Assembly (NCBI RefSeq): GCF_900143015.1
Contig: NZ_FSRT01000001.1
Span: forward strand, 806,001 to 870,000
DNA length: 64,000 nt
Source of the DNA: Fibrobacter sp. UWB11
Lineage (GTDB): Bacteria > Fibrobacterota > Fibrobacteria > Fibrobacterales > Fibrobacteraceae
Direction: 5' to 3'
Below the pieces are notes generated by a model. The model did not search any database. It was not told where the DNA came from and saw nothing but the letters and a program-made list of their open reading frames with translations. Shown here in pieces: positions 15,579 through 30,692 of the stretch. The position numbers and the translations under genes are program-made. Positions within the stretch are counted from its first letter, which is position 1. Each line of letters starts with the position of its first letter.

Positions 15579-15616
15579 CTACAGCCTACTATCCACTGTT
15601 TACTAATCACTAAATA
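15579..15616 (-). repeat. Degenerate heptamer array at the cysE 3' end
   Basis: Five 7-nt units of form NNNYAGT, beginning in the cysE stop codon and ending before the terminator. Similar arrays lie at 23657-23694, 44203-44243, 46366-46390 and 57970-58016. Confidence 0.55.
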
Positions 15617-16572
15617 ATGTAGTACCAATCGTCACTTTGCGTGATTTCTGTGGTTTTGTGTTTTTTGCTATCGGTTGTGGTGTAGTCGAGTTCCAAATTC
15701 TTGATGCTGACGCGGGTGTTGGCATCGATGGAACGTGTAATGAATGCGTTGCCGCCGATGACCGCATTTTCACCTACGACCGTATCGCCGCCGAGAATGG
15801 ATGCGCCTGCATAAATAGTGACGTTATCCTGAATTGTCGGGTGGCGCTTTTTGCCGGAGAGTCTTTGGCCGCCTCGTGTGGAAAGTGCTCCCAGCGTAAC
15901 GCCTTGATAAATCTTCACATTCTTGCCGATGACTGCTGTTTCGCCAATTACAATGCCGGTACCGTGATCGATAAAGAAGTATTTGCCGATGGTTGCACCC
16001 GGGTGAATATCGATACCCGTTTTAGAGTGTGCGTATTCGGTCATGAGTCGCGGGAGAACCGGAACGTGCAAAAGGTAGAGCTCATGGGCAATGCGGTAGA
16101 TTGTCGTTGCCATGAGGCCGGGGTAGGCGAGGATGATTTCGTCAAGGCAGCCGGCAGCCGGGTCGCCGTCATAGGCTGCGTGCAAGTCCGTTTCTAGGAA
16201 TTCACGGATTTGCGGAATCTTGGCGAAAAATTCCTTACAAATTCTGTAACTTTCGATTTTGCGTTCATCGGAAGTCATAGTGCCACGAAGCTTACAGTAA
16301 TCCAAAGCAATTGCCACCTGTTTGTGGAGATGGTAGAAGATATCTTCGATAAGAACTGCAAAGCTGTTTTTCGGATTGTAAATCTTATGCGTACGATCTC
16401 TGAAGTGTCCAGGATAAACGACTCGAATCAAATTCTGCAAAATCGTCTGGATCTCGGCCTGGTCGGGTCGATTGTAAATATCGATATTGTCGATATGCTT
16501 GCCGCGATTGTAATCGTCGAAAATAATTTGTACGGCTTTTTCAACTTCAGATTCTTGGATAAGTTCGTGCAT
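15610..16572 (-). CDS. cysE: Serine O-acetyltransferase
   Basis: The product (320 residues from the ATG at 16572; 336 if started at 16620) makes O-acetylserine, the carbon acceptor for cysteine synthesis. An N-terminal helical domain of ~190 residues is followed by a left-handed beta-helix of hexapeptide repeats. These include the catalytic histidine region GIDIHPGATIG and IDHGTGIVIGETA, and the GGQRLSGKKRHPTI loop. Neither start has a strong ribosome site. It lies last in the encapsulin and cysteine desulfurase operon, the context known for Family 2A encapsulins in other bacteria. Confidence 0.92.
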   Translation of the reverse strand: MHELIQESEVEKAVQIIFDDYNRGKHIDNIDIYNRPDQAEIQTILQNLIRVVYPGHFRDRTHKIYNPKNSFAVLIEDIFYHLHKQVAIALDYCKLRGTMTSDERKIESYRICKEFFAKIPQIREFLETDLHAAYDGDPAAGCLDEIILAYPGLMATTIYRIAHELYLLHVPVLPRLMTEYAHSKTGIDIHPGATIGKYFFIDHGTGIVIGETAVIGKNVKIYQGVTLGALSTRGGQRLSGKKRHPTIQDNVTIYAGASILGGDTVVGENAVIGGNAFITRSIDANTRVSIKNLELDYTTTDSKKHKTTEITQSDDWYYII

Positions 16573-16613
16573 AGTTTGAGTAGGAAGTAAAAAATTAAAG
16601 TGATAAGCTTTAG

Positions 16614-16752
16614 GCGTCATACTGAGTCTGAAAGGCGAAGTATCCAGTTAAAATGCCCTGAATCCTGCTCCTTCGAACCTAACTCTACTAAGGCAACAAG
16701 TTGCCAAGTATCGTATATCGACTTCGTGCTAGGCACTCTGCTCAGGATGACT
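16614..16752. repeat. MITE-like element between cysE and the desulfurase gene
   Basis: About 139 bp bounded by inverted ends GTCATACTGAG and CTCAGGATGAC, variants of the dispersed GTCATCCTGAG repeat. No coding capacity. Confidence 0.5.
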
Positions 16753-16781: not shown

Positions 16782-18524
16782 TTACGCGAACGTCTTCAGC
16801 GCTCTTACGAGTGCATCGATGTCATCGGGCGAGTTGTAGAGTGCGAGAGTGGGTCGCACGGTACTTTCGTATCCGAAATGGCGTAAGACAGGCTGTGCGC
16901 AGTGATGACCGGTGCGAACGGCAACGCCGTAAGCATCGAGTCTCTTGCCAACTTCTTCGTCGGAATAACCGTCGAGCTTGAAGGCAAGCGCAGATGCCTT
17001 GTTGAGTGCGGTTCCTACAAGGTGAATTCCCTTGACGGTCTTCAATTCCTTGAGGCCATACTGCAACAGTTCATGTTCCCAACGGAATACGCAGGGCATT
17101 CCGATTTCGGAGAGGTACTGGAGTGCAGCACCAAGGCCAACAGCGTCGGCGATGCTTCCCGTTCCTGCTTCGAACTTGTTCGGAATTCCGTTGTAAATGG
17201 TGCGTTCGAACGTCACGTCCGCAATCATGTTACCGCCGCCATGGTAAGGTCTTGCTGCTTCGAGCAATTCCTTTTTGCCATAGATAACGCCGATGCCGGT
17301 CGGAGCAAACACCTTGTGTCCAGAGAACACGAAGAAGTCTGCGTCGAGGGCTGCGACATTCACCGGAATGTGAGCGATAGACTGTGCACCGTCAATGAGG
17401 ATTCTCACGCCGTGTCTATGAGCGATGGCGATGAGTTCTTCAATCGGGGTCACAGTGCCGAGCACGTTCGAAACATGCGTCACGGAAACGAACTTGGTGC
17501 GCTTCGTGAACAATGCTTCGTAATCGTGGAGCTTGAGCTGACCGGTAGAATCGCACGGAATTACCTTAATCACGGCACCTGTTTCTTCGGCAATGAGCTG
17601 CCAAGGAACGATGTTGGCGTGATGTTCCAGGATGGAAACGATGATCTCGTCACCCGGCTGGAGCGTCGGCTTTACGTAAGCGTTTGCAACCAAGTTAATA
17701 GCTTCGGTCGTACCGCGAACAAAAACGACTTCCTGAGAAGACGGAGCACCGATAAAGTCACGAACAATGTTGCGTGCGTTTTCGTATGCGTCTGTCGATG
17801 CTGCCGCGAGCGTGTGTGCGCCACGGTGAACGTTGGAGTTTTCGTTTTCGTAGTAGTACTTGAGGCGGTCAATGACTACCTGCGGGCGCTGCGTCGTTGC
17901 ACCGTTATCGAGCCAAACGAGTGGATGACCGTTGATCTGCTTCGAAAGAATCGGGAAGTCAGAACGGATCTGGGCAAGCGTCTTGGAACCGATGCGGATG
18001 GAATCGTTGCGAGAATTTGCGCCGCTGTTTGCAGAACCTGTCTTCACGGAGTCACCACCGAGAGATGTCGGAGCGTCGATCTGGCGATTAGCTTCGGCAG
18101 CCTGCGTCTTGGACACGACTTTCGGGGAGTAACCCTGAGCCGGTGCGGGGGCTGTCGGAATATCGCTCAGCTGCGATGCAAACTGCGATTCGGGAACCGC
18201 AGGGGCTTCGACCGTGTTGAGCCAGGTGTCTGTAGAACTTCCGCCGTAGGCAAACGGAGCCGAAGATGTCGGCTGGTCGCCATAAGTCGCAAAGGGATGT
18301 TCCCAGTCGAAAGCTGGAGTTTGGCTAATGGCTGCGGCACCCTGTGCTGCACTGACACCCTGTGCTGCAGATGCATTCTGCGCTTCGGGAGCAGCGGGGG
18401 TTGCTGCGTATGCGCTATCCGTCAAATCCGGAAAATACGCATTTGCCAATTGCTCCAGTTCAGCCGCATTGGGAACTCCGGCGAGTTCTTCCAGCGATCT
18501 GGTTTCTGGATTATTCGTAGTCAT
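16782..18524 (-). CDS. Encapsulin-cargo cysteine desulfurase (SufS-like) with long disordered N-terminal domain
   Basis: A 580-residue PLP enzyme that removes sulfur from cysteine to form a protein persulfide. The last ~400 residues are a group II (SufS-like) desulfurase: the PLP lysine is in FSGHKVFAPTG and the persulfide cysteine in VRTGHHCAQP (about residue 542). The first ~175 residues are rich in Ala, Ser, Pro and Gln and predicted disordered, apart from a short helix-like start (SLEELAGVPNAAELEQLANA) and a DWEHPFATYG patch. Such N-terminal domains load this desulfurase into Family 2A encapsulin shells. The ATG at 18524 overlaps the encapsulin gene by 14 nt with GAGG upstream; a TTG at 18536 is less likely. 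Confidence 0.93.
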   Translation of the reverse strand: MTTNNPETRSLEELAGVPNAAELEQLANAYFPDLTDSAYAATPAAPEAQNASAAQGVSAAQGAAAISQTPAFDWEHPFATYGDQPTSSAPFAYGGSSTDTWLNTVEAPAVPESQFASQLSDIPTAPAPAQGYSPKVVSKTQAAEANRQIDAPTSLGGDSVKTGSANSGANSRNDSIRIGSKTLAQIRSDFPILSKQINGHPLVWLDNGATTQRPQVVIDRLKYYYENENSNVHRGAHTLAAASTDAYENARNIVRDFIGAPSSQEVVFVRGTTEAINLVANAYVKPTLQPGDEIIVSILEHHANIVPWQLIAEETGAVIKVIPCDSTGQLKLHDYEALFTKRTKFVSVTHVSNVLGTVTPIEELIAIAHRHGVRILIDGAQSIAHIPVNVAALDADFFVFSGHKVFAPTGIGVIYGKKELLEAARPYHGGGNMIADVTFERTIYNGIPNKFEAGTGSIADAVGLGAALQYLSEIGMPCVFRWEHELLQYGLKELKTVKGIHLVGTALNKASALAFKLDGYSDEEVGKRLDAYGVAVRTGHHCAQPVLRHFGYESTVRPTLALYNSPDDIDALVRALKTFA

Positions 18525-19473
18525 AGTATTCGCCAACCTCTACGTCTTCAAGGACTGCGATAGCGTCGTCGGAAAGGATTGCTGCAGAGCAGTAGAGCGA
18601 CAGGAGGTAAGATGCGACACCCTTGTTGTCGATACCGCGGAAACGCACGGAGAGGCCGCGAGAGTGTTCGTTCTTGAGGCCAGCCTGGAAGAGACCGATA
18701 ACACCGCGCTTTGCTTCGCCAGTACGGACGAGCAAGATGTTGGTCTTGCCACCCTTGGACTTCGGATTCTTCACGCCATCGACAAGGAGCTTGTCGGTCG
18801 GGACGAGAGGAATGCCGCGCCAGGTGAGGAACTTGCCACCGGCGATGTCAACGACGACAGGCGGCACGCCACGGCGGGTGCATTCGCGTTCGAAAGCTGC
18901 AATAGCACGCGGGTGGGCGAGGAAGAAGGACGGTTCCTTCCAAACCTTGGAGATGAGTTCATCGAGATCGTCCGGAGTCGGACGGCCATCGTCGCGGAGC
19001 GGCTGGATGCGCTGGGTGTCAGCGATGTTCTTCAAGAGACCGTAGTCGTCATTGTTGATGAGCTGGCTTTCCTGACGTTCGCGGAGAGATTCGATAGCGA
19101 GACCGAGCTGTTCCTGAACCTGATCATACGGAGAGCTGTAAACGTCTTCGATAGCGGTGTTGACGTTGATGATCGTGGAAATGGAGTTGAGCTTGTATTC
19201 ACGCGGTTCGGTTTCGTATTCGACGTAGCCTTCCGGGATAATGTCAGACTTCTTGGTTGCGCTGCAGAGAATGTCGAGCGGTGTCTGGCCTTCGACGACC
19301 TTGTTCACGCGGAAAAGACCTGTTTCGAGACCCTTGAATTCAAGGAACTTGGTGAGCCACTTGGGCGTGAGCGCGCCAAATTGCGGCTTGGTCTTGGTGA
19401 CGTTCGCCAGGTTGTATGCGGCCTTGGCGCCGAGGGCGTTAAGGCCCGTGTTCTTTTCTGCTTCATTTGCCAT
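18511..19473 (-). CDS. Family 2A encapsulin shell protein (SrpI-like)
   Basis: A 320-residue HK97-fold shell protein of the encapsulin Family 2A, close in pattern to SrpI of Synechococcus. Recognisable blocks are SSPYDQVQEQL, RERQESQLINN.DYGLL, GRPTPDDLDELISKVWKEP, FFLAHPRAIAAF, RRGVPP and the C-terminal YCSAAILSDDAIAVLEDV. It assembles into icosahedral nanocompartments that hold cysteine desulfurase. The desulfurase gene follows with overlap and cysE after it, so the unit is a sulfur-storage or sulfur-trafficking operon. AGAGGTAAAC precedes the ATG. No sulfur-regulon box was found in the 155-nt upstream gap. Confidence 0.96.
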   Translation of the reverse strand: MANEAEKNTGLNALGAKAAYNLANVTKTKPQFGALTPKWLTKFLEFKGLETGLFRVNKVVEGQTPLDILCSATKKSDIIPEGYVEYETEPREYKLNSISTIINVNTAIEDVYSSPYDQVQEQLGLAIESLRERQESQLINNDDYGLLKNIADTQRIQPLRDDGRPTPDDLDELISKVWKEPSFFLAHPRAIAAFERECTRRGVPPVVVDIAGGKFLTWRGIPLVPTDKLLVDGVKNPKSKGGKTNILLVRTGEAKRGVIGLFQAGLKNEHSRGLSVRFRGIDNKGVASYLLSLYCSAAILSDDAIAVLEDVEVGEYYDYE

Positions 19474-19628: not shown

Positions 19629-21095
19629 TTATAACCAAGCGCCTTCGTGCGAGAACATGATGTCCTTCATTGCGTCGATACCGCCCTTCAAGTTGTACAG
19701 AGGACCGGTGTAACCCGCTTCGCGCAAGGTGTTGATGGCGAGTTCGCTGCGTTTGCCCTGCTTGCAGACGAAAATGGTATCCTTGTTCGGGTCGAGTTCC
19801 TTTTGCCTGCGGACGAGCTGTCCAATCGGAATCACGATGGCGTTCGGGAATCGCAGAATTGCGCGTTCGTGCGGTTCGCGGACATCCACGATGGTCATGT
19901 CGTCGCCGTTGTCGATGCGCTTGGCAAGTTCTTCGGGCGTGAATCCTTCTACAGGCGTTTCGTTTGTGGTCTTCAATCCGCAAAGTTCTTCGTAGTCGAT
20001 TTCTTCAACGCTCGTGATTGTCGGGTTGTTCCCGCAAATCGGGCAATGGCAATTGCGTTCGACTTTGAGAATTCTCGATGACAAGTACAAGCTATCGACA
20101 TGGAGAATTTTGCCGTTCAGGTGTTCGCCGATTCCCAAGATGAGCTTGAGCGCTTCATTCGCTTGGATGCTACCGATGATGCCTGGGAGCGGACTGATGG
20201 CACCACCTTCTGCGCAAGAGGGGATGAGCCCTGCCGGCGGAGGAGATGGGTATTGGCAACGCAAGCACGGACCGCCATCCAGATTGAATACGCCGACTTG
20301 GCCTTCGAACTGGTAAATGGCGCCGAATACAACCGGAATGCCGTGCAGTGCGCAAGCATCGTTGATCAAGTAGCGAGCCTTGTAGTTGTCTGTGCAATCG
20401 ACGACTAAATCGTAGCCTTCAATTTCAGCTTCGATGTTCGATGCGTCGAGCTGTTCCTTGACGGCTTCGAAGACTATTGTCTTGTTGATGTTTTTTACTT
20501 TGTCCCTTGCGGAGGCGACTTTTGGACGCTTGACATCGCGTGTGCCGTGAATGACTTGGCTCTGCAAATTTTCAAGCGAGACTTCGTCAAAATCGATGAC
20601 CTTGATGGTGCCAACGCCTGCAGCGGCGAGGTATTGGATGACTGGGGAACCGAGGGCTCCTGCGCCTACGACGACCACTTTTGCGGCCTTGATGCGCTTT
20701 TGACCCTTGACGCCGATATCGCGGAGCATCAGGTGCTTGCCGAAACGTTCGATTTCAGAATCATCAAATGAAACGGCTTTGCGCCTTTCGTCCGAAATTA
20801 GGCTCTCTACGGGAGCGTCGGTCGGTGCACCGCCAGCGATGGCGGGCAAAAGTAGAATTTCGGTATCTTCTGGAAGAGTGGCGTCCCAAATCGTTTCAAC
20901 GGTCAATTTTTTGTTGTTGACGTAAATCTGGATGAAGTCCCTGACCTTTTTATTGTCGTCGTAAAGAACCTTTTCTCCTTCTGGGTAAGTCGTCGTTAAA
21001 AATGCGAGAGCCTTTCTGACCGTATCGGCAGGGGCTTCTACTTGGGAGTTCTTCCCAAAGAAATTCCTGAGTGTTGCTGATATGTATATTTTCAC
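19629..21095 (-). CDS. Three-domain fusion: ubiquitin-like sulfur carrier, E1-like (ThiF/MoeB) adenylyltransferase, rhodanese
   Basis: A 488-residue fusion. Residues 1-89 are a MoaD/ThiS/CysO-like beta-grasp fold ending LLLPAIAGG, so the di-glycine that is normally a free C-terminus is buried at residues 88-89. Residues about 112-350 are an E1-like domain: GAGALGS nucleotide loop, zinc pairs CLRC and CPIC, and a candidate active cysteine in PSCAEGG. Residues about 385-488 are a rhodanese with persulfide cysteine in FVCKQGKRS. The start is GTG with ACGGAG upstream. Such proteins adenylate the carrier C-terminus and load sulfur. Here cleavage after GG would first be needed, and JAMM protease genes lie directly upstream. 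It carries its own sulfur-regulon box. Confidence 0.9.
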   Translation of the reverse strand: MKIYISATLRNFFGKNSQVEAPADTVRKALAFLTTTYPEGEKVLYDDNKKVRDFIQIYVNNKKLTVETIWDATLPEDTEILLLPAIAGGAPTDAPVESLISDERRKAVSFDDSEIERFGKHLMLRDIGVKGQKRIKAAKVVVVGAGALGSPVIQYLAAAGVGTIKVIDFDEVSLENLQSQVIHGTRDVKRPKVASARDKVKNINKTIVFEAVKEQLDASNIEAEIEGYDLVVDCTDNYKARYLINDACALHGIPVVFGAIYQFEGQVGVFNLDGGPCLRCQYPSPPPAGLIPSCAEGGAISPLPGIIGSIQANEALKLILGIGEHLNGKILHVDSLYLSSRILKVERNCHCPICGNNPTITSVEEIDYEELCGLKTTNETPVEGFTPEELAKRIDNGDDMTIVDVREPHERAILRFPNAIVIPIGQLVRRQKELDPNKDTIFVCKQGKRSELAINTLREAGYTGPLYNLKGGIDAMKDIMFSHEGAWL

Positions 21096-21194
21096 TTTTT
21101 TCTCCGTACATTGGGCCGCTCAAGTAGAGGTTCCCTAAAAAGTGTTGTTTCCGTACAAATTTTCCCACAATACTTGTAGGATTTTTCAAGCCGA

Positions 21195-21239
21195 AATATA
21201 GAACGTAAAAATCCGTTTGTCCAATACTTAATTTTTATG
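21195..21239 (-). promoter_or_regulatory. Sulfur-regulon promoter box 2
   Basis: TAAGTATTGGAC, 18 nt ending CGTTC, then TATATT on the minus strand, about 100 nt before the fusion gene. Confidence 0.85.
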
Positions 21240-21294
21240 CTGAGATATTGATTTTATTTATAGCCAAACTCGTTTTGAAACGTTAGGCTATAAC

Positions 21295-21684
21295 TCATTG
21301 CAAATCCCGCTGATAGCTTTTCACATCTACGACTTCGCCGTTTTTTACAGACATGATGACGTATTCGAGGCCGGGGACCATGTAATTCTCGTCTTCTTTG
21401 GAGAGGATGGCGGGACAGTCGGGGTGTGAGTGGTAAACGCCGACAATCTCAAGACCGCTGGCTTCGATTTCTTGTTCCAAGTGGTAGATAAATAGCGGGT
21501 CTATTTGAAAATGGACAGATTTTTGCCCATGAAACAGGTTTGGGGCTTCGCGAATATCGGTGACTTCGATTTCGCCCTTTTCAGACTTTTTTCCAACCAA
21601 AATGCCGCAGCATTCACTTGGGTATGCTTTTTTTGCGGCTAAAGCCATTTGCTCTGAAACTATTTTACTAAATTTGGTTGTCAA
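21295..21684 (-). CDS. JAMM/MPN+ metalloprotease (Mec/CysO-protease type), second copy
   Basis: A 129-residue zinc metalloprotease. The JAMM motif is complete: upstream glutamate in the SECCGILVG region, then HSHPDCPAILSKED (HxHPx6SxxD). Relatives of this size remove residues from the C-terminus of ubiquitin-like sulfur carriers to expose Gly-Gly, or release cysteine from them. The likely start is TTG at 21684 because AGGAG lies seven nucleotides upstream; the next ATG is 12 codons later. It lies between the hcyD terminator and the promoter of the carrier-E1-rhodanese fusion, which makes that fusion a candidate substrate. Confidence 0.85.
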   Translation of the reverse strand: MTTKFSKIVSEQMALAAKKAYPSECCGILVGKKSEKGEIEVTDIREAPNLFHGQKSVHFQIDPLFIYHLEQEIEASGLEIVGVYHSHPDCPAILSKEDENYMVPGLEYVIMSVKNGEVVDVKSYQRDLQ

Positions 21685-21799: not shown

Positions 21800-22210
21800 T
21801 TACTCAATCACCAAGCCTTCGTTTGTGGCGTTGTCGCCTTCGATATGGAACGAATTGAGTACCGGATTTGCGCGGTCCATCAGCGAAAGAATCAAGTAGC
21901 TAGCCTTGCTGTCGAAAGCGAGGCGCTTGTCTTCTTGCGACGGGCGCGACGGGGATTCAGGGTGAGAATGCCAGTTGCCAAGCGGGGATAGGCCATTTTG
22001 GCGCATATCCTTGATGGCGGCTAAGTGTTCCTTGGGGTCAAGCGAAAAGTGCTCATTGGAATGGTCTATGTTCGTGAGCAGGTAAACCTTTTCAATATGC
22101 TTGTCGTTCCCCTCAATTTTCCCGGCAATCAGCCCGCAAGCCTCTTCGGGGAGGTTCTTCTGGGCATGCTCCAGGATTTTTTGATAATTATCTTTTGAAA
22201 TTGTAATCAT
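21800..22210 (-). CDS. hcyD: JAMM/MPN+ metalloprotease, HcyD-like
   Basis: A 136-residue JAMM protease with EEACGLIAGK and GNWHSHPESPSRPSQED (HxHPx6SxxD). In the protein-thiocarboxylate methionine pathway described in Wolinella, HcyD trims the C-terminal tail of the sulfur carrier HcyS to expose Gly-Gly. The carrier encoded two genes upstream ends GGGQ, so exactly one residue would need to be removed. It is the last gene of a tusA-like, hcyS, hcyF, hcyD operon driven by box 3 and is followed by a terminator. Confidence 0.87.
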   Translation of the reverse strand: MITISKDNYQKILEHAQKNLPEEACGLIAGKIEGNDKHIEKVYLLTNIDHSNEHFSLDPKEHLAAIKDMRQNGLSPLGNWHSHPESPSRPSQEDKRLAFDSKASYLILSLMDRANPVLNSFHIEGDNATNEGLVIE

Positions 22211-22219
22211 TGAAATTCC

Positions 22220-23029
22220 TTAGTGCTTCATCTCACAGACGGCTTGTTCGTAGTCGATCAGATGGTCAATCGTCGGATGGTCACCGCAGACTGCGCAATC
22301 CTTCGTGTTCGTCGGGAGCTTGATCTTGCGGAATTCCATCGTGAGCGCATTGTAGGTGAGCAAGTATCCCGTGAGCAAATTGCCGACACCGAGAATGTAC
22401 TTGACGGCTTCCATCGCCTGGAGGCTTCCGATAACACCGCCCATAGCGCCGATTACGCCTGCCTGCTTGCAAGTCGGCACGGCATCTTTCGGAGGGGGTT
22501 CCTTGAAGACGCAGCGGTAGCACGGACCTTGACCCGGAACGTACGTCATGAGCTGCCCCTGGAAGCGGATAATGCCCGCGTGAGAGAACGGCTTCTTGGC
22601 CATGACGCATGCGTCGTTGATGAGGAACTTTGCCGGGAAGTTGTCGGTTCCATCAATGATAAAATCGTAATCCTTGATGAGGTCCATGATGTTTTCGCTG
22701 GTGACGAACGTGTGGTACGTAATCACCTTGACATCCGGGTTCATCGCTTCCATCGTTTCCTTGGCGGACTGCACCTTGGGCTTGCCCACGTCCTTTGTAG
22801 CGTGTATTATCTGGCGCTGCAAATTGGAAAGGTCAACGACGTCTGCATCGGCAATGCCGATGGTGCCAACGCCTGCGGCGGCGAGGTACATAGCGACAGG
22901 AGCACCGAGGCCACCTGCGCCAATGACGAGCACCTTGGCGTTCAAAAGCTTCTTCTGGCCCTTTGCGCCCACTTCCTTGAGGATGATGTGGCGGGAATAG
23001 CGTTCAAGTTGTTCGTTAGTAAAAGCCAT
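22220..23029 (-). CDS. hcyF: E1-like adenylyltransferase, HcyF-like (ThiF/MoeB family)
   Basis: A 269-residue ThiF/MoeB protein. It shows the GAGGLGAPV nucleotide loop, DNLQR-type SNLQRQIIHATKDVG, catalytic aspartate in IDGTDNFPAKFLIND, zinc pairs CYRC and CAVC, and a candidate cysteine in PTCKQAGV. It would adenylate the C-terminal glycine of HcyS and allow sulfide to form the thiocarboxylate. The start codon overlaps the hcyS stop by one nucleotide (TAATG), which indicates tight coupling of carrier and enzyme. Confidence 0.9.
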   Translation of the reverse strand: MAFTNEQLERYSRHIILKEVGAKGQKKLLNAKVLVIGAGGLGAPVAMYLAAAGVGTIGIADADVVDLSNLQRQIIHATKDVGKPKVQSAKETMEAMNPDVKVITYHTFVTSENIMDLIKDYDFIIDGTDNFPAKFLINDACVMAKKPFSHAGIIRFQGQLMTYVPGQGPCYRCVFKEPPPKDAVPTCKQAGVIGAMGGVIGSLQAMEAVKYILGVGNLLTGYLLTYNALTMEFRKIKLPTNTKDCAVCGDHPTIDHLIDYEQAVCEMKH

Positions 23030-23235
23030 TACTGACCACCTCCCATGAAGTAGAGGAATTCGACGTTGTCGCCGTCCTTGAGAGCGGTCGTTGCGAAATT
23101 GCCGTTTTCGACAAATTCATCGTTGAGGGAAACGGTCACATACTGCGGCGTTTCGACCTTTTCTTGTTCAATGAGTTCTGCGACGGTGAGGCCGTCTTTA
23201 ACTTCTTTCTTGTTTCCTGCAACAGTAATAAACAT
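23029..23235 (-). CDS. hcyS: ThiS-like sulfur carrier with one-residue tail after Gly-Gly (HcyS-like)
   Basis: A 68-residue beta-grasp sulfur carrier. The C-terminus reads FMGGGQ, not the free Gly-Gly of ThiS or MoaD, so the Gln must be removed before adenylation. A JAMM protease is encoded in the same operon. The context of metY, hcyF, hcyD, siroheme sulfite reductase and APS reductase points to homocysteine synthesis rather than thiamin; no thiamin thiazole gene was seen nearby. Confidence 0.88.
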   Translation of the reverse strand: MFITVAGNKKEVKDGLTVAELIEQEKVETPQYVTVSLNDEFVENGNFATTALKDGDNVEFLYFMGGGQ

Positions 23236-23656: not shown

Positions 23657-23694
23657 TCGTTAGTTATTAGTCAATGGTCATTGGTTAATAGCTA
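23657..23694 (-). repeat. Degenerate heptamer array at the metY 3' end
   Basis: Five or six 7-nt units of form CYAWTRA starting at the metY stop codon (CTATTAA, CCAATGA and so on). Confidence 0.6.
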
Positions 23695-24921
23695 CGAAAT
23701 CTGCTTTATAGCTTGTTCGAAATCTTCCTTGAGGTCATCAATATCTTCGATGCCTACGCTAATGCGGATAGAGCCTTCGAACACGCCGGCGTTTTCTTTT
23801 TGCTCTTGGGTGGCATGCGTGAAAATCGTACTTTCCGGGTGGATGACGAGCGTGCGCAAGTCGCCAATGTTCGTGGCAATCGTAGCGTATTTCAAGTTGT
23901 TGATGAGCTTGAACGCTTTTTCCTTGGTGCCTGCGTCAATTGAAATGATGGCGCCGCCCTTGCCGTTAAACTGCTTTTGAACAAGATCGTAGTAAGGGCT
24001 GTTTTTTAAGCCGGGATAGTTGACGGTGATGCCTTCGAAACCCTGCAAAAATTCAGCGAGTTGCAAGGCGTTATCACAAAGGCGTTCCATGCGGAGCCCG
24101 AGAGTTTCAAGCCCGAGCGAGTTGAGGAATGCGGTAGCGGGGGCGATACAACAACCGATATTGCGCCATACACCATTGCGGAGTTTCGCGAGATAAGCGA
24201 ACTTGCTAAAGCGTTTGTATTCTTCCAAGCCCTTGTATTTGGTGTAATCCCACTTGAATTTTCCGCTATCGACGATGATGCCGCTGATGGCACTGCCGTT
24301 TCCGTTGATGTACTTGGAAGAGGAGTGGACAACGATATCTGCGCCAAAGTCAAAAGGATGAACAAGGTAAGGAGTTGCTGTCGTGCTGTCGACAATCAGC
24401 GGGACGCCTGCTTCGTGTGCGACATCTGCAACGCTTTGAATATCAACGACATTGAGTTTCGGGTTGCCGATAAGTTCTGTAAAAACTGCCTTGGTCTTAT
24501 CGCTCAATTGCGAACGAACGCTCTCAGCGGTAACTTCTGTGACGTAACGGGTTTTAATGCCGAATGCTTCCAAATCGTGGAACAAGTCGATCGTGCCGCC
24601 AAACAATGCCGTACTTGCAATAACTTCGTCGCCGGACTGCAAAATGTTCAAGAGCGACATCGTCACGGCAGCCATGCCCGACGAGCAGGCTATGGCGCCA
24701 ATGCCCTTTTCAAGAGATGCAATGCGCCTTTCGAAAGAATCTGTCGTGGGGTTTCCAATGCGCGTATATGCAAAACCCGGAGCCCTATTGTTAAAAACAG
24801 CTTCGAGTTTCTCTGCGGATTCTTGCGAAAATGCACTGACTTGGTAAATAGGGGTAAGCGTAGAGCCGGTACTTCGTTCACTTCCAAAATTATGATGCAA
24901 TAAAGTAGTATTAAAATCCAT
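23692..24921 (-). CDS. metY: O-acetylhomoserine sulfhydrylase, likely HcyS-dependent
   Basis: A 409-residue PLP enzyme of the Cys/Met family. It has the PLP lysine in VVHSSSKYINGNG and the substrate arginine in IRISVGIEDIDD. It is shorter than the copy at 13457-14800 and distinct in sequence. It sits directly upstream of the hcy operon with its own box, which is the arrangement expected of the enzyme that takes sulfur from the HcyS thiocarboxylate to make homocysteine. The start is placed at 24921 from the conserved N-terminus and TACGGAGAACC upstream; a longer frame runs through the promoter box. Confidence 0.88.
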   Translation of the reverse strand: MDFNTTLLHHNFGSERSTGSTLTPIYQVSAFSQESAEKLEAVFNNRAPGFAYTRIGNPTTDSFERRIASLEKGIGAIACSSGMAAVTMSLLNILQSGDEVIASTALFGGTIDLFHDLEAFGIKTRYVTEVTAESVRSQLSDKTKAVFTELIGNPKLNVVDIQSVADVAHEAGVPLIVDSTTATPYLVHPFDFGADIVVHSSSKYINGNGSAISGIIVDSGKFKWDYTKYKGLEEYKRFSKFAYLAKLRNGVWRNIGCCIAPATAFLNSLGLETLGLRMERLCDNALQLAEFLQGFEGITVNYPGLKNSPYYDLVQKQFNGKGGAIISIDAGTKEKAFKLINNLKYATIATNIGDLRTLVIHPESTIFTHATQEQKENAGVFEGSIRISVGIEDIDDLKEDFEQAIKQIS

Positions 24922-24959
24922 TAGGTTCTCCGTACATATTCCTATAATTTTCGTAGGCA

Positions 24960-25003
24960 AATATAGAACGAGGTTTAGTAATTGTCCAATACTAAATTTA
25001 TAT
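24960..25003 (-). promoter_or_regulatory. Sulfur-regulon promoter box 4
   Basis: ATATA-N5-AGTAT dyad-like arm, TTGGAC, 18 nt ending CGTTC, TATATTTGC. Confidence 0.85.
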
Positions 25004-25126
25004 GGCGTTTTATAGTCAAATCCTATAATAAATATAGGGTTAAGCCTAGTCAAATTAAGGGTTTATGGTTTGGTATTTAGTAAAGAACTAATTTTGCTTC
25101 TTATAGGAAATTTTTATAAAAATGCA

Positions 25127-29687: not shown

Positions 29688-30692
29688 ATGTCCGAAGTCA
29701 AGAACTTTTCCGCAAAAGATTTCCATAAGATTGATGTAAATAATTCGACGTTTCTTGATGTTCGCGAACCCGGCGAAGTCATCGTTCATCCTGTGGACGG
29801 TGCGATTCAGATTCCTTTCTTTGAACTTTCGAAAAAGATTGATTACATCCCCAAGGACAAACCTGTTTATGTTTTTTGCTCTACGGGTGATCGCTCTGAA
29901 CAAGTCGCAGAAATTCTTGCGGATAGGGATTTTGATGTGTATAACATCGAGGGCGGTCTTGACGCGGCTCCGAAAGCGCTTTATGTCGATGCCAAGGGAT
30001 TGAAATGCCCTGGTCCAATCGTAAAGGTTGATGAAACCGTCAAAAAGGCTTTTGTTGGTGACGAAATCCAAGTCGAAGCGGATGAAAAAGCGTTTCTCTC
30101 GGATGTCGAGGTATGGTGCCAGCGTACCGGAAATCAATTGAAATCACTCACCGAAAATGACGGCGTCATTTACGCAACCATCGTGAAAAAAGAATCACCT
30201 GTACCCGAAAAAAAAGAATTTGAACACGGCAAAACTTTTGTCGTGTTCAGTGGCGATTTGGATAAGGCGATTGCTTCGTTCATCATGGCGAATGGTGCTG
30301 CCGCTATGGGGCGCCCGGTGACGATGTTCTTTACTTTTTGGGGCGTAAGCCTTTTGCGCAGACCCGAAAAAGTCCGTGTGAAAAAATCGCTCATCGGAAA
30401 AATGTTCAGCTTGATGCTGCCGCGAGGCTCTAAAAAGCTAGGCCTTTCTCGTATGAACTTTGGCGGTATTGGCGCCAAGATGATCCGTGCCGTCATGAAA
30501 AAGAATGGCGTGTCTTCGCTGGAAGAATTAATCCAAAGCGCACAACAAAAAGGTGTCAAGTTTGTCGCGTGCCAAATGTCGATGGAACTCATGGGAATCT
30601 CCCATGAGGAATTGATCGATGGGGTAGAACTGGGCGGCGTTGCAACGATGCTCGGCTCCACCGAAAAATCTGACTTGACGTATTTTATTTAA
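29688..30692 (+). CDS. Rhodanese - TusA - DsrE-like fusion
   Basis: A 334-residue three-part sulfur-relay protein. Residues about 5-92 are a rhodanese with the persulfide cysteine in FCSTGDRSEQ. Residues about 98-165 are TusA-like with GLKCPGPIVKV. Residues about 180-334 are a DsrE/DsrF-like domain (FVVFSGDLDKAIASFIMANGAAAMG). The same order forms the C-terminal half of some CoA-disulfide reductase-type proteins, but no flavin domain is present here. AAGGTG precedes the ATG. It probably moves sulfane sulfur between cysteines. Its 3' end overlaps the convergent bioB gene by four nucleotides. Confidence 0.88.
   Translation: MSEVKNFSAKDFHKIDVNNSTFLDVREPGEVIVHPVDGAIQIPFFELSKKIDYIPKDKPVYVFCSTGDRSEQVAEILADRDFDVYNIEGGLDAAPKALYVDAKGLKCPGPIVKVDETVKKAFVGDEIQVEADEKAFLSDVEVWCQRTGNQLKSLTENDGVIYATIVKKESPVPEKKEFEHGKTFVVFSGDLDKAIASFIMANGAAAMGRPVTMFFTFWGVSLLRRPEKVRVKKSLIGKMFSLMLPRGSKKLGLSRMNFGGIGAKMIRAVMKKNGVSSLEELIQSAQQKGVKFVACQMSMELMGISHEELIDGVELGGVATMLGSTEKSDLTYFI

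Follow-up and report, generated by a model that had tools for sequence, protein, structure and literature searches.

A carrier-E1-rhodanese fusion gene beside a family 2A encapsulin gene in Fibrobacter, with a predicted cut after its internal Gly-Gly

Genes at the locus

The window analysed here is a stretch of 64,000 nucleotides from the genome of Fibrobacter sp. UWB11 (contig NZ_FSRT01000001.1). It contains a gene that encodes a CysO-type sulfur carrier, an E1 enzyme and a rhodanese in one polypeptide (Table 1). The reading frame starts with GTG, is preceded by a GGAG box and has no internal stop. Pfam placed the ThiS family at residues 4–89, ThiF at 120–352 and the rhodanese at 386–476. A preliminary description of the locus had read a carrier ending AIAGG at residue 89, an E1 and a rhodanese in this single frame, and both the frame and the Pfam domains bear this out. 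The closest folds to the full-length AF2 model were Uba4 (6yub), which was the top full-length match, and MoeB (1jw9).

The gene of a JAMM metalloprotease (JAMM1) lies upstream, as had been described, at a distance of 200 bases, and its product has the metal-binding motif (E24, H-S-H-P, S and D). Downstream lies a shell protein gene whose product exceeded the NCBIfam cut-off for family 2A encapsulins only: against the 2B model it scored 366 bits, under the cut-off of 400. In the cysteine desulfurase of the encapsulin cargo type, the SufS domain begins at residue 189, and the cargo model score was just under the cut-off.

Table 1. Positions of the genes and sequence features in the window
Feature	Position	Strand	Evidence
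Serine O-acetyltransferase (CysE/EpsC)	15610..16620	(-)	NF041874 over cut-off
Cysteine desulfurase, encapsulin cargo type, N-terminal extension of ~185 residues	16782..18536	(-)	NF041166 759 bits (cut-off 800); TIGR01979 sufS over cut-off
Family 2A encapsulin shell protein	18511..19473	(-)	NF041162 475 bits (cut-off 380); PF19307 3e-92
CysO-E1(MoeB/MoeZ)-rhodanese fusion, 488 aa	19629..21095	(-)	ORF; Pfam ThiS/ThiF/Rhodanese; 77 aligned sequences
Rhodanese (active Cys444) and clade-specific C-terminal tail DIMFSHEGAWL	19632..19946	(-)	Pfam; alignment
E1 adenylation domain; zinc pairs, C294 loop, K120 and S179 at Arg positions	20028..20771	(-)	Pfam; alignment; fold match MoeB 1jw9, Uba4 6yub
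Predicted cut site, Gly88-Gly89 / Ala90-Pro-Thr	20820..20834	(-)	GG kept; low pLDDT; unfused carrier ends
Carrier domain, residues 1-89, ending PAIAGG	20829..21095	(-)	AF2 pLDDT 90; CysO 3dwg_C TM 0.83
Promoter/operator repeat before the fusion gene	21194..21276	(-)	Core AATTAAGTATTGGAC at 21219-21233
JAMM1 metalloprotease, candidate processing enzyme	21295..21684	(-)	Prok-JAB 2e-20; upstream of fusion 65/71; JAMM residues kept
JAMM2 (HcyD-like)	21800..22210	(-)	Prok-JAB 2e-26
HcyF-like E1, both Arg kept (RYSRH, NLQRQ)	22220..23029	(-)	Profile match; alignment
HcyS-like carrier, ends FMGGGQ	23029..23235	(-)	Sequence; PF02597
O-acetylhomoserine sulfhydrylase-type PLP enzyme	23692..25053	(-)	Profile match; immediately precedes JAMM1 in many clade A loci

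The fusion had been proposed to be separate from a HcyS/HcyF/HcyD system, and a set of this type is indeed encoded next door (21800–23235). The genome (3.76 Mb, 9 contigs) contains two Prok-JAB genes, both within the sulfur cluster, and three ThiS-family carriers: the fusion, the HcyS-like carrier and a ThiS elsewhere. The genome has six PALP-family genes, of which one lies in the window, ~13 kb from the fusion. Two other roles of the carrier were considered. A role in molybdopterin synthesis was ruled out, as MoaE is absent from the genome. A thiamine role was rejected as well: there is a separate ThiS at 1.325 Mb, beside a partial ThiF match.

Occurrence of the fusion and its neighbours

The search for related loci returned 78 loci, almost entirely from rumen or gut (Fibrobacter, Lachnospiraceae and other Clostridia, Thermoguttaceae, Ruminobacter/Succinivibrio and Treponema). 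The architecture was common to 77 aligned sequences from five phyla, and 73 of the aligned sequences formed the core set for conservation scoring. The JAMM neighbour recurs as well: in 65 of 71 loci its gene immediately precedes the fusion, in some with a 4-base overlap. The JAMM motif (E/HxH/S/D) was matched automatically in 57 of 69 homologues and was complete by eye in the others, except for two cut at contig ends. Succinivibrio L079 and L197 had a HcyD-type JAMM only. No close copy of the fusion was found in a plasmid search.

Directly downstream of the fusion, an encapsulin gene was present in all 69 loci with enough sequence, followed by the cysteine desulfurase cargo and usually by the serine acetyltransferase. 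The system had been described as self-contained; this has to be revised, since the fusion is one gene of an operon that also encodes a family 2A encapsulin, a cysteine desulfurase and a serine acetyltransferase. In an encapsulin survey of the class to which one of the Lachnospiraceae loci belongs, 7 of 391 genomes had a shell gene.

In the tree, the window's clade (clade A) had a support of 100/100. The Fibrobacter copies were nested among Lachnospiraceae, as expected if the gene was transferred within the rumen. Further fusions, from other Fibrobacterota, formed a set of their own (clade B) that grouped with the unfused L198 and L196. With moderate support, the tree thus suggests at least two separate fusion events.

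The operons of clade B and of the unfused relatives read cysM-JAMM-carrier/E1-rhodanese (L118, L119, L120, L196 and L198). Shell and desulfurase are also present in L119, L196, L197 and L198, and the full order in L196 and L198 is cysM-JAMM-carrier-E1-encapsulin-desulfurase. No cysM lies beside the fusion in the window, but it is present in the sister operons (L118, L119, L120, L196, L197 and L198). The cysM position is often occupied in clade A by the O-acetylhomoserine sulfhydrylase-type gene.

The carrier domain and its Gly-Gly

The carrier domain has a beta-grasp fold nearest to CysO, both by profile and by fold match. Against solved structures, CysO ranked first (4n6e_B 2.7e-18, 3dwg_C 6e-17), and it was also the top fold match of the AF2 model. 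Other fold matches were SAMP1, Urm1 and MoaD-related chains, among them MoaD from its complex with MoeB.

The Gly-Gly was present in 74 of the 77 aligned sequences. In the core sequences, the conservation of P-x-x-A-G-G was 0.95, versus 0.61 for the carrier body. The linker between the Gly-Gly and the conserved start of the E1 was mostly 21–31 residues long and variable in sequence. In the full-length AF2 model, residues 88–94 had a pLDDT <50, and the Gly-Gly loop was modelled as disordered.

Unfused relatives came from the order of Thermoguttaceae and from Spirochaetota. The Gly-Gly is internal in the window's fusion, and it is terminal or near-terminal in the carriers of these relatives. In L194 and L195, the separate carrier gene ends exactly with PAIAGG, and the E1-rhodanese starts 0–1 codon on in the same frame. 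The separate carriers that adjoin a JAMM have one to four extra residues after the Gly-Gly: in L196 the carrier ends PAIAGGF and is in frame with the E1-rhodanese just after, and the L198 carrier has the end PAIAGGTSRG and is directly followed by the E1-rhodanese gene. As the unfused carriers stop at PAIAGG or one to four residues on, Gly89 is the ancestral C-terminus of the carrier. As this comparison shows, the fusion arose by the loss of the stop codon between the carrier gene and the adjacent E1-rhodanese gene.

L194 and L195, both unfused and without encapsulin, also have a second E1-like gene directly upstream of the carrier (L194:8584-9420 (-), L195:6151-6996 (+)).

In three Thermoguttaceae fusions (L075, L076 and L078), GE replaces the Gly-Gly. 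The cysteine of the E1 catalytic (crossover) loop, C294, was missing from exactly these three proteins and present in all 74 proteins with the Gly-Gly. Where the upstream sequence extends far enough, no JAMM was found beside these fusions. At the genome level, a Prok-JAB gene was present in 0 of 3 GG-less genomes versus 21 of 22 with a fused GG carrier, the only exception among the latter being G054, which is 83% complete. The chance of such a split is 0.0017 by counting, with the three GG-less cases forming one lineage and therefore counting as one event. This distribution ties the Gly-Gly, the catalytic cysteine of the E1 and the JAMM together, as elements that are retained or lost jointly.

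Between carrier and E1, the GG-less fusions have a Cys-rich repeat linker (CGSPCDSGCESV...; L075:7932-9737, L076:3-1559, L078:7141-8775), which possibly binds metal or persulfide.

The E1 and rhodanese domains

The E1 domain retained the GxGxxG motif (G144/146/149), the catalytic Asp D236, the RPK Lys K192 and the two zinc pairs (C277/C280 and C351/C354). C294 matches Uba4 C202. The two arginines that contact the ATP phosphates were replaced: the position of MoeB Arg14/Uba4 Arg18 is K120, and that of MoeB Arg73/Uba4 Arg77 is S179. The second site was S, N or C in 76 of the 77 sequences and Arg in one. Both arginines were retained in clade B, in the unfused relatives and in the HcyF-like E1. 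Hence, the preliminary description of an intact E1 holds for the zinc pairs, GxGxxG, D236, K192 and C294, but not for the ATP-phosphate arginines.

Arg18 and Arg77 are part of the nucleotide site of Uba4, whose R18A+R77A double mutant no longer hydrolyses ATP (PMC7527816). The E1 chemistry may therefore be altered in clade A. The Gly-Gly, C294 and the JAMM are still selected in this clade despite the loss of the arginines. An E1 without both arginines, yet with the Gly-Gly of the carrier and the catalytic cysteine retained, is a puzzle in itself. A strict tie between D236 and the Gly-Gly was considered and rejected, as two proteins with the Gly-Gly have N there too.

The rhodanese (PF00581, 2e-15) has C444 as its active cysteine. 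In clade A, its end (window 19632-19664 (-)) reads AMKDIxFSHEGAWL, and other E1-rhodaneses end WA..(V/I)D.S.P.Y. The strong conservation of the clade A tail suggests a possible use in docking.

Proposed pathway and alternatives

On balance, we lean towards a pathway in which the CysO-MoeZ fusion channels sulfur from the encapsulin desulfurase into the synthesis of cysteine or homocysteine, with the carrier freed by a JAMM. We are much surer of the cut than of the full route: a cut after Gly89 is probable, and it is well supported by the ancestral C-terminus, by the Gly-Gly kept despite the variable linker and by the joint loss of Gly-Gly, cysteine and JAMM.

The cut site rests on comparison; we infer which protease cuts, how the carrier is loaded, where the sulfur comes from and which acceptor takes it. 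JAMM1, encoded upstream, would cut after Gly89 and thereby split the fusion into a carrier that ends in Gly-Gly and an enzyme made up of E1 and rhodanese. The E1 would then activate the C-terminus of the carrier. The rhodanese would accept sulfur as a persulfide, with the encapsulated cysteine desulfurase as the most likely donor, and this sulfur would turn the carrier into a thiocarboxylate. The predicted product is a thiocarboxylated CysO-type carrier, which a PLP sulfhydrylase would use to form cysteine or homocysteine. This sulfhydrylase would be CysM in the sister operons and here probably the O-acetylhomoserine sulfhydrylase-type enzyme. O-acetylserine would be supplied by the serine acetyltransferase of the operon. 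The JAMM may additionally free the amino acid from the carrier, like Mec+. That genes of sulfate uptake and reduction have the operator repeat too is in line with this pathway; the genome G054, in which no JAMM was seen, and L079 and L197, with the HcyD-type JAMM only, count against it.

The locus had earlier been read as a precursor that is cut and then loaded. The Gly89 end, the joint retention of Gly-Gly, C294 and JAMM, the carrier fold and the precedent of cut fusions speak for this reading; the arginine replacements in the E1 and the lack of self-containment speak against it.

Alternatively, the fusion could stay whole, with the carrier as a docking or regulatory part in cis, the E1 as a scaffold and the rhodanese working on sulfur of the desulfurase or the shell. 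The GG-less Thermoguttaceae fusions, without C294 and JAMM, keep the rhodanese cysteine and the C-terminal tail and still lie beside an encapsulin, so an uncut fusion must have some use; the window's clade lacks both ATP-phosphate arginines. A scaffold, however, needs none of the Gly-Gly, C294 and JAMM, which are retained in 74 of 77 cases and lost together, and unfused carriers stop at the same Gly-Gly. We consider this reading unlikely.

It is a little less likely still that another protease releases the carrier and that JAMM1 acts mainly later, as a Mec+ on a carrier-cysteine adduct. The substrate that Mec+ hydrolyses in Mycobacterium is an adduct of CysO with cysteine (PMC3227635), and JAMM1 may accordingly have a cutting role, an adduct role or both. 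As the related pathway is CysO-MoeZ-CysM-Mec+, the JAMM may equally or also hydrolyse such an adduct. As a Mec+, JAMM1 would be expected at the locus without any fusion, which counts against the cut, and sister operons do have the order cysM-JAMM-carrier-E1 even with an unfused carrier (L196, L198). On the other side, the JAMM DR0402 of Deinococcus cuts a MoaD-MoaE fusion (PMC8832034), so that one enzyme could plausibly do both, and the unfused carriers beside a JAMM need their one to four extra residues trimmed too.

We regard it as very improbable that the released carrier is a ubiquitin-like modifier (similar to SAMP1 or Urm1) that is attached to proteins, perhaps the encapsulin or its cargo, and removed by JAMM1. 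The carrier matched the NCBIfam SAMP1 model (1.3e-10) and JAMM1 the desampylase model (1.2e-17), both below cut-off, and the fold matches include SAMP1 and Urm1. Yet no E2-like gene was seen beside the fusion, those of its neighbours that were identified serve sulfur assimilation, and cysM is present in the related operons.

We give even less credence to an E1 of clade A that, with both phosphate-binding arginines lost, departs from the usual ATP use and relies on the Gly89-Ala90 peptide bond of its own carrier. Either C294 or the persulfide of the rhodanese would attack this bond directly and yield a carrier thiocarboxylate in a single-use reaction, with the encapsulated desulfurase as the sulfur source.

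An artefact of assembly or gene calling (a missed stop or a frameshift) is practically ruled out: in two relatives the carrier stop and the E1 start adjoin in one frame, where one misread base could fuse both genes, but the fused frame recurs in many assemblies and in 77 sequences of five phyla, and the linker differs in length and composition.

Comparison with known systems

The nearest known pathway is that of Mycobacterium, in which CysO, MoeZ (MoeZR), CysM and Mec+ make cysteine (PMC3227635). The locus shares with it a CysO-type carrier, an E1 with a C-terminal rhodanese and a JAMM, and the sister operons have cysM. In Mycobacterium, CysO is a separate gene, whereas here carrier and E1-rhodanese form one polypeptide. 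Moreover, a family 2A encapsulin and a desulfurase are part of the operon, and the window's clade has an O-acetylhomoserine sulfhydrylase-type gene in place of cysM and altered ATP residues in the E1.

Carriers with an internal Gly-Gly fused to a partner are known from MoaX of M. tuberculosis, which is cut after Gly82 (PMC4326299), and from DR2607, the MoaD-MoaE fusion that DR0402 cuts (PMC8832034). In both, a cut after the second Gly frees the carrier. Their partner is MoaE, a user of sulfur for molybdopterin, whereas the carrier described here is fused to its activating enzyme, in a genome that lacks MoaE. Uba4/MOCS3 likewise combines an E1 and a rhodanese to thiocarboxylate a ubiquitin-fold carrier, Urm1 (PMC7527816). 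Urm1 is a separate protein, and Uba4 retains Arg18 and Arg77, unlike the window's fusion.

Family 2A encapsulins of the SrpI type with cysteine desulfurase cargo have reported partners in serine acetyltransferase and rhodanese (PMC8049743, PMC8346489). The window's operon is similar in its shell over the NCBIfam cut-off, its desulfurase with a long extension and its adjoining serine acetyltransferase. The difference is that here the rhodanese is joined to a carrier and an E1 in one protein, and the shell is thereby linked to thiocarboxylate chemistry.

The methionine system HcyS/HcyF/HcyD of Wolinella (Krishnamoorthy and Begley 2011, as cited in PMC5764234) also has a carrier, an E1 and a JAMM in a sulfur locus. 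These are separate genes with an E1 that has no rhodanese, and in the window the carrier of the similar set ends GGGQ. The fusion is a second system. The operons 4b-4c of Iyer et al. 2006 combine an E1-rhodanese, a ThiS/MoaD protein and a JAB (plus a cysteine synthase), with a predicted sulfur transfer to cysteine synthesis (PMC1779556). The gene set is the same, but carrier and E1 are separate proteins there, and the passages on these operons do not mention encapsulin. For the Ubl-ThiF fusion of Campylobacter, the corresponding passage has operons that also contain a free ThiS (PMC1779556).

Hence, thiocarboxylate carriers, E1-rhodaneses, carrier fusions cut by JAMM proteases and family 2A encapsulins with rhodanese neighbours (PMC8346489) were already known. 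New are the fusion of a carrier to its own activating enzyme in a CysO-type pathway, the strict link that the window's clade shows to a 2A encapsulin, and an E1 whose ATP residues are altered. Among openly accessible papers, we found none that pairs 'encapsulin' with 'sulfur carrier', and in the openly accessible literature no report of an acceptor for sulfur from family 2A encapsulated cysteine desulfurases. The operon offers a physical candidate acceptor: a carrier-E1-rhodanese whose gene adjoins that of the shell at every locus with enough sequence, across five phyla. This position suggests a destination of the compartment's sulfur. The natural series of unfused, extended, fused and dead carriers makes processing by the JAMM testable.

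Shared repeat and candidate regulators

The core of the repeat before the fusion gene, AATTNAGTATTGGAC, had eight copies in the window versus 0.03 expected, all on one strand (14858, 21219, 23610, 24984, 26101, 28922, 34052 and 38896 (-)). In the five copies inspected, CGTTCTATATTT was also common downstream. The repeat precedes the fusion and seven other units, including genes for sulfate transport, ATP sulfurylase, APS reductase and sulfite reductase. Judged from the repeat, these units look like one regulon.

In the sulfate transport region, a gene at window 29688-30692 (+) encodes a protein that by eye resembles a rhodanese-TusA-DsrE single chain, with no NCBIfam match at E <= 1e-30. At four other loci (L075:12740-13246, L076:4627-5052, L078:11811-12272 and L197:12795-13244, all (-)), genes that by eye resemble Rrf2-type regulators converge on the downstream end of the encapsulin operon and are candidates for its regulator.
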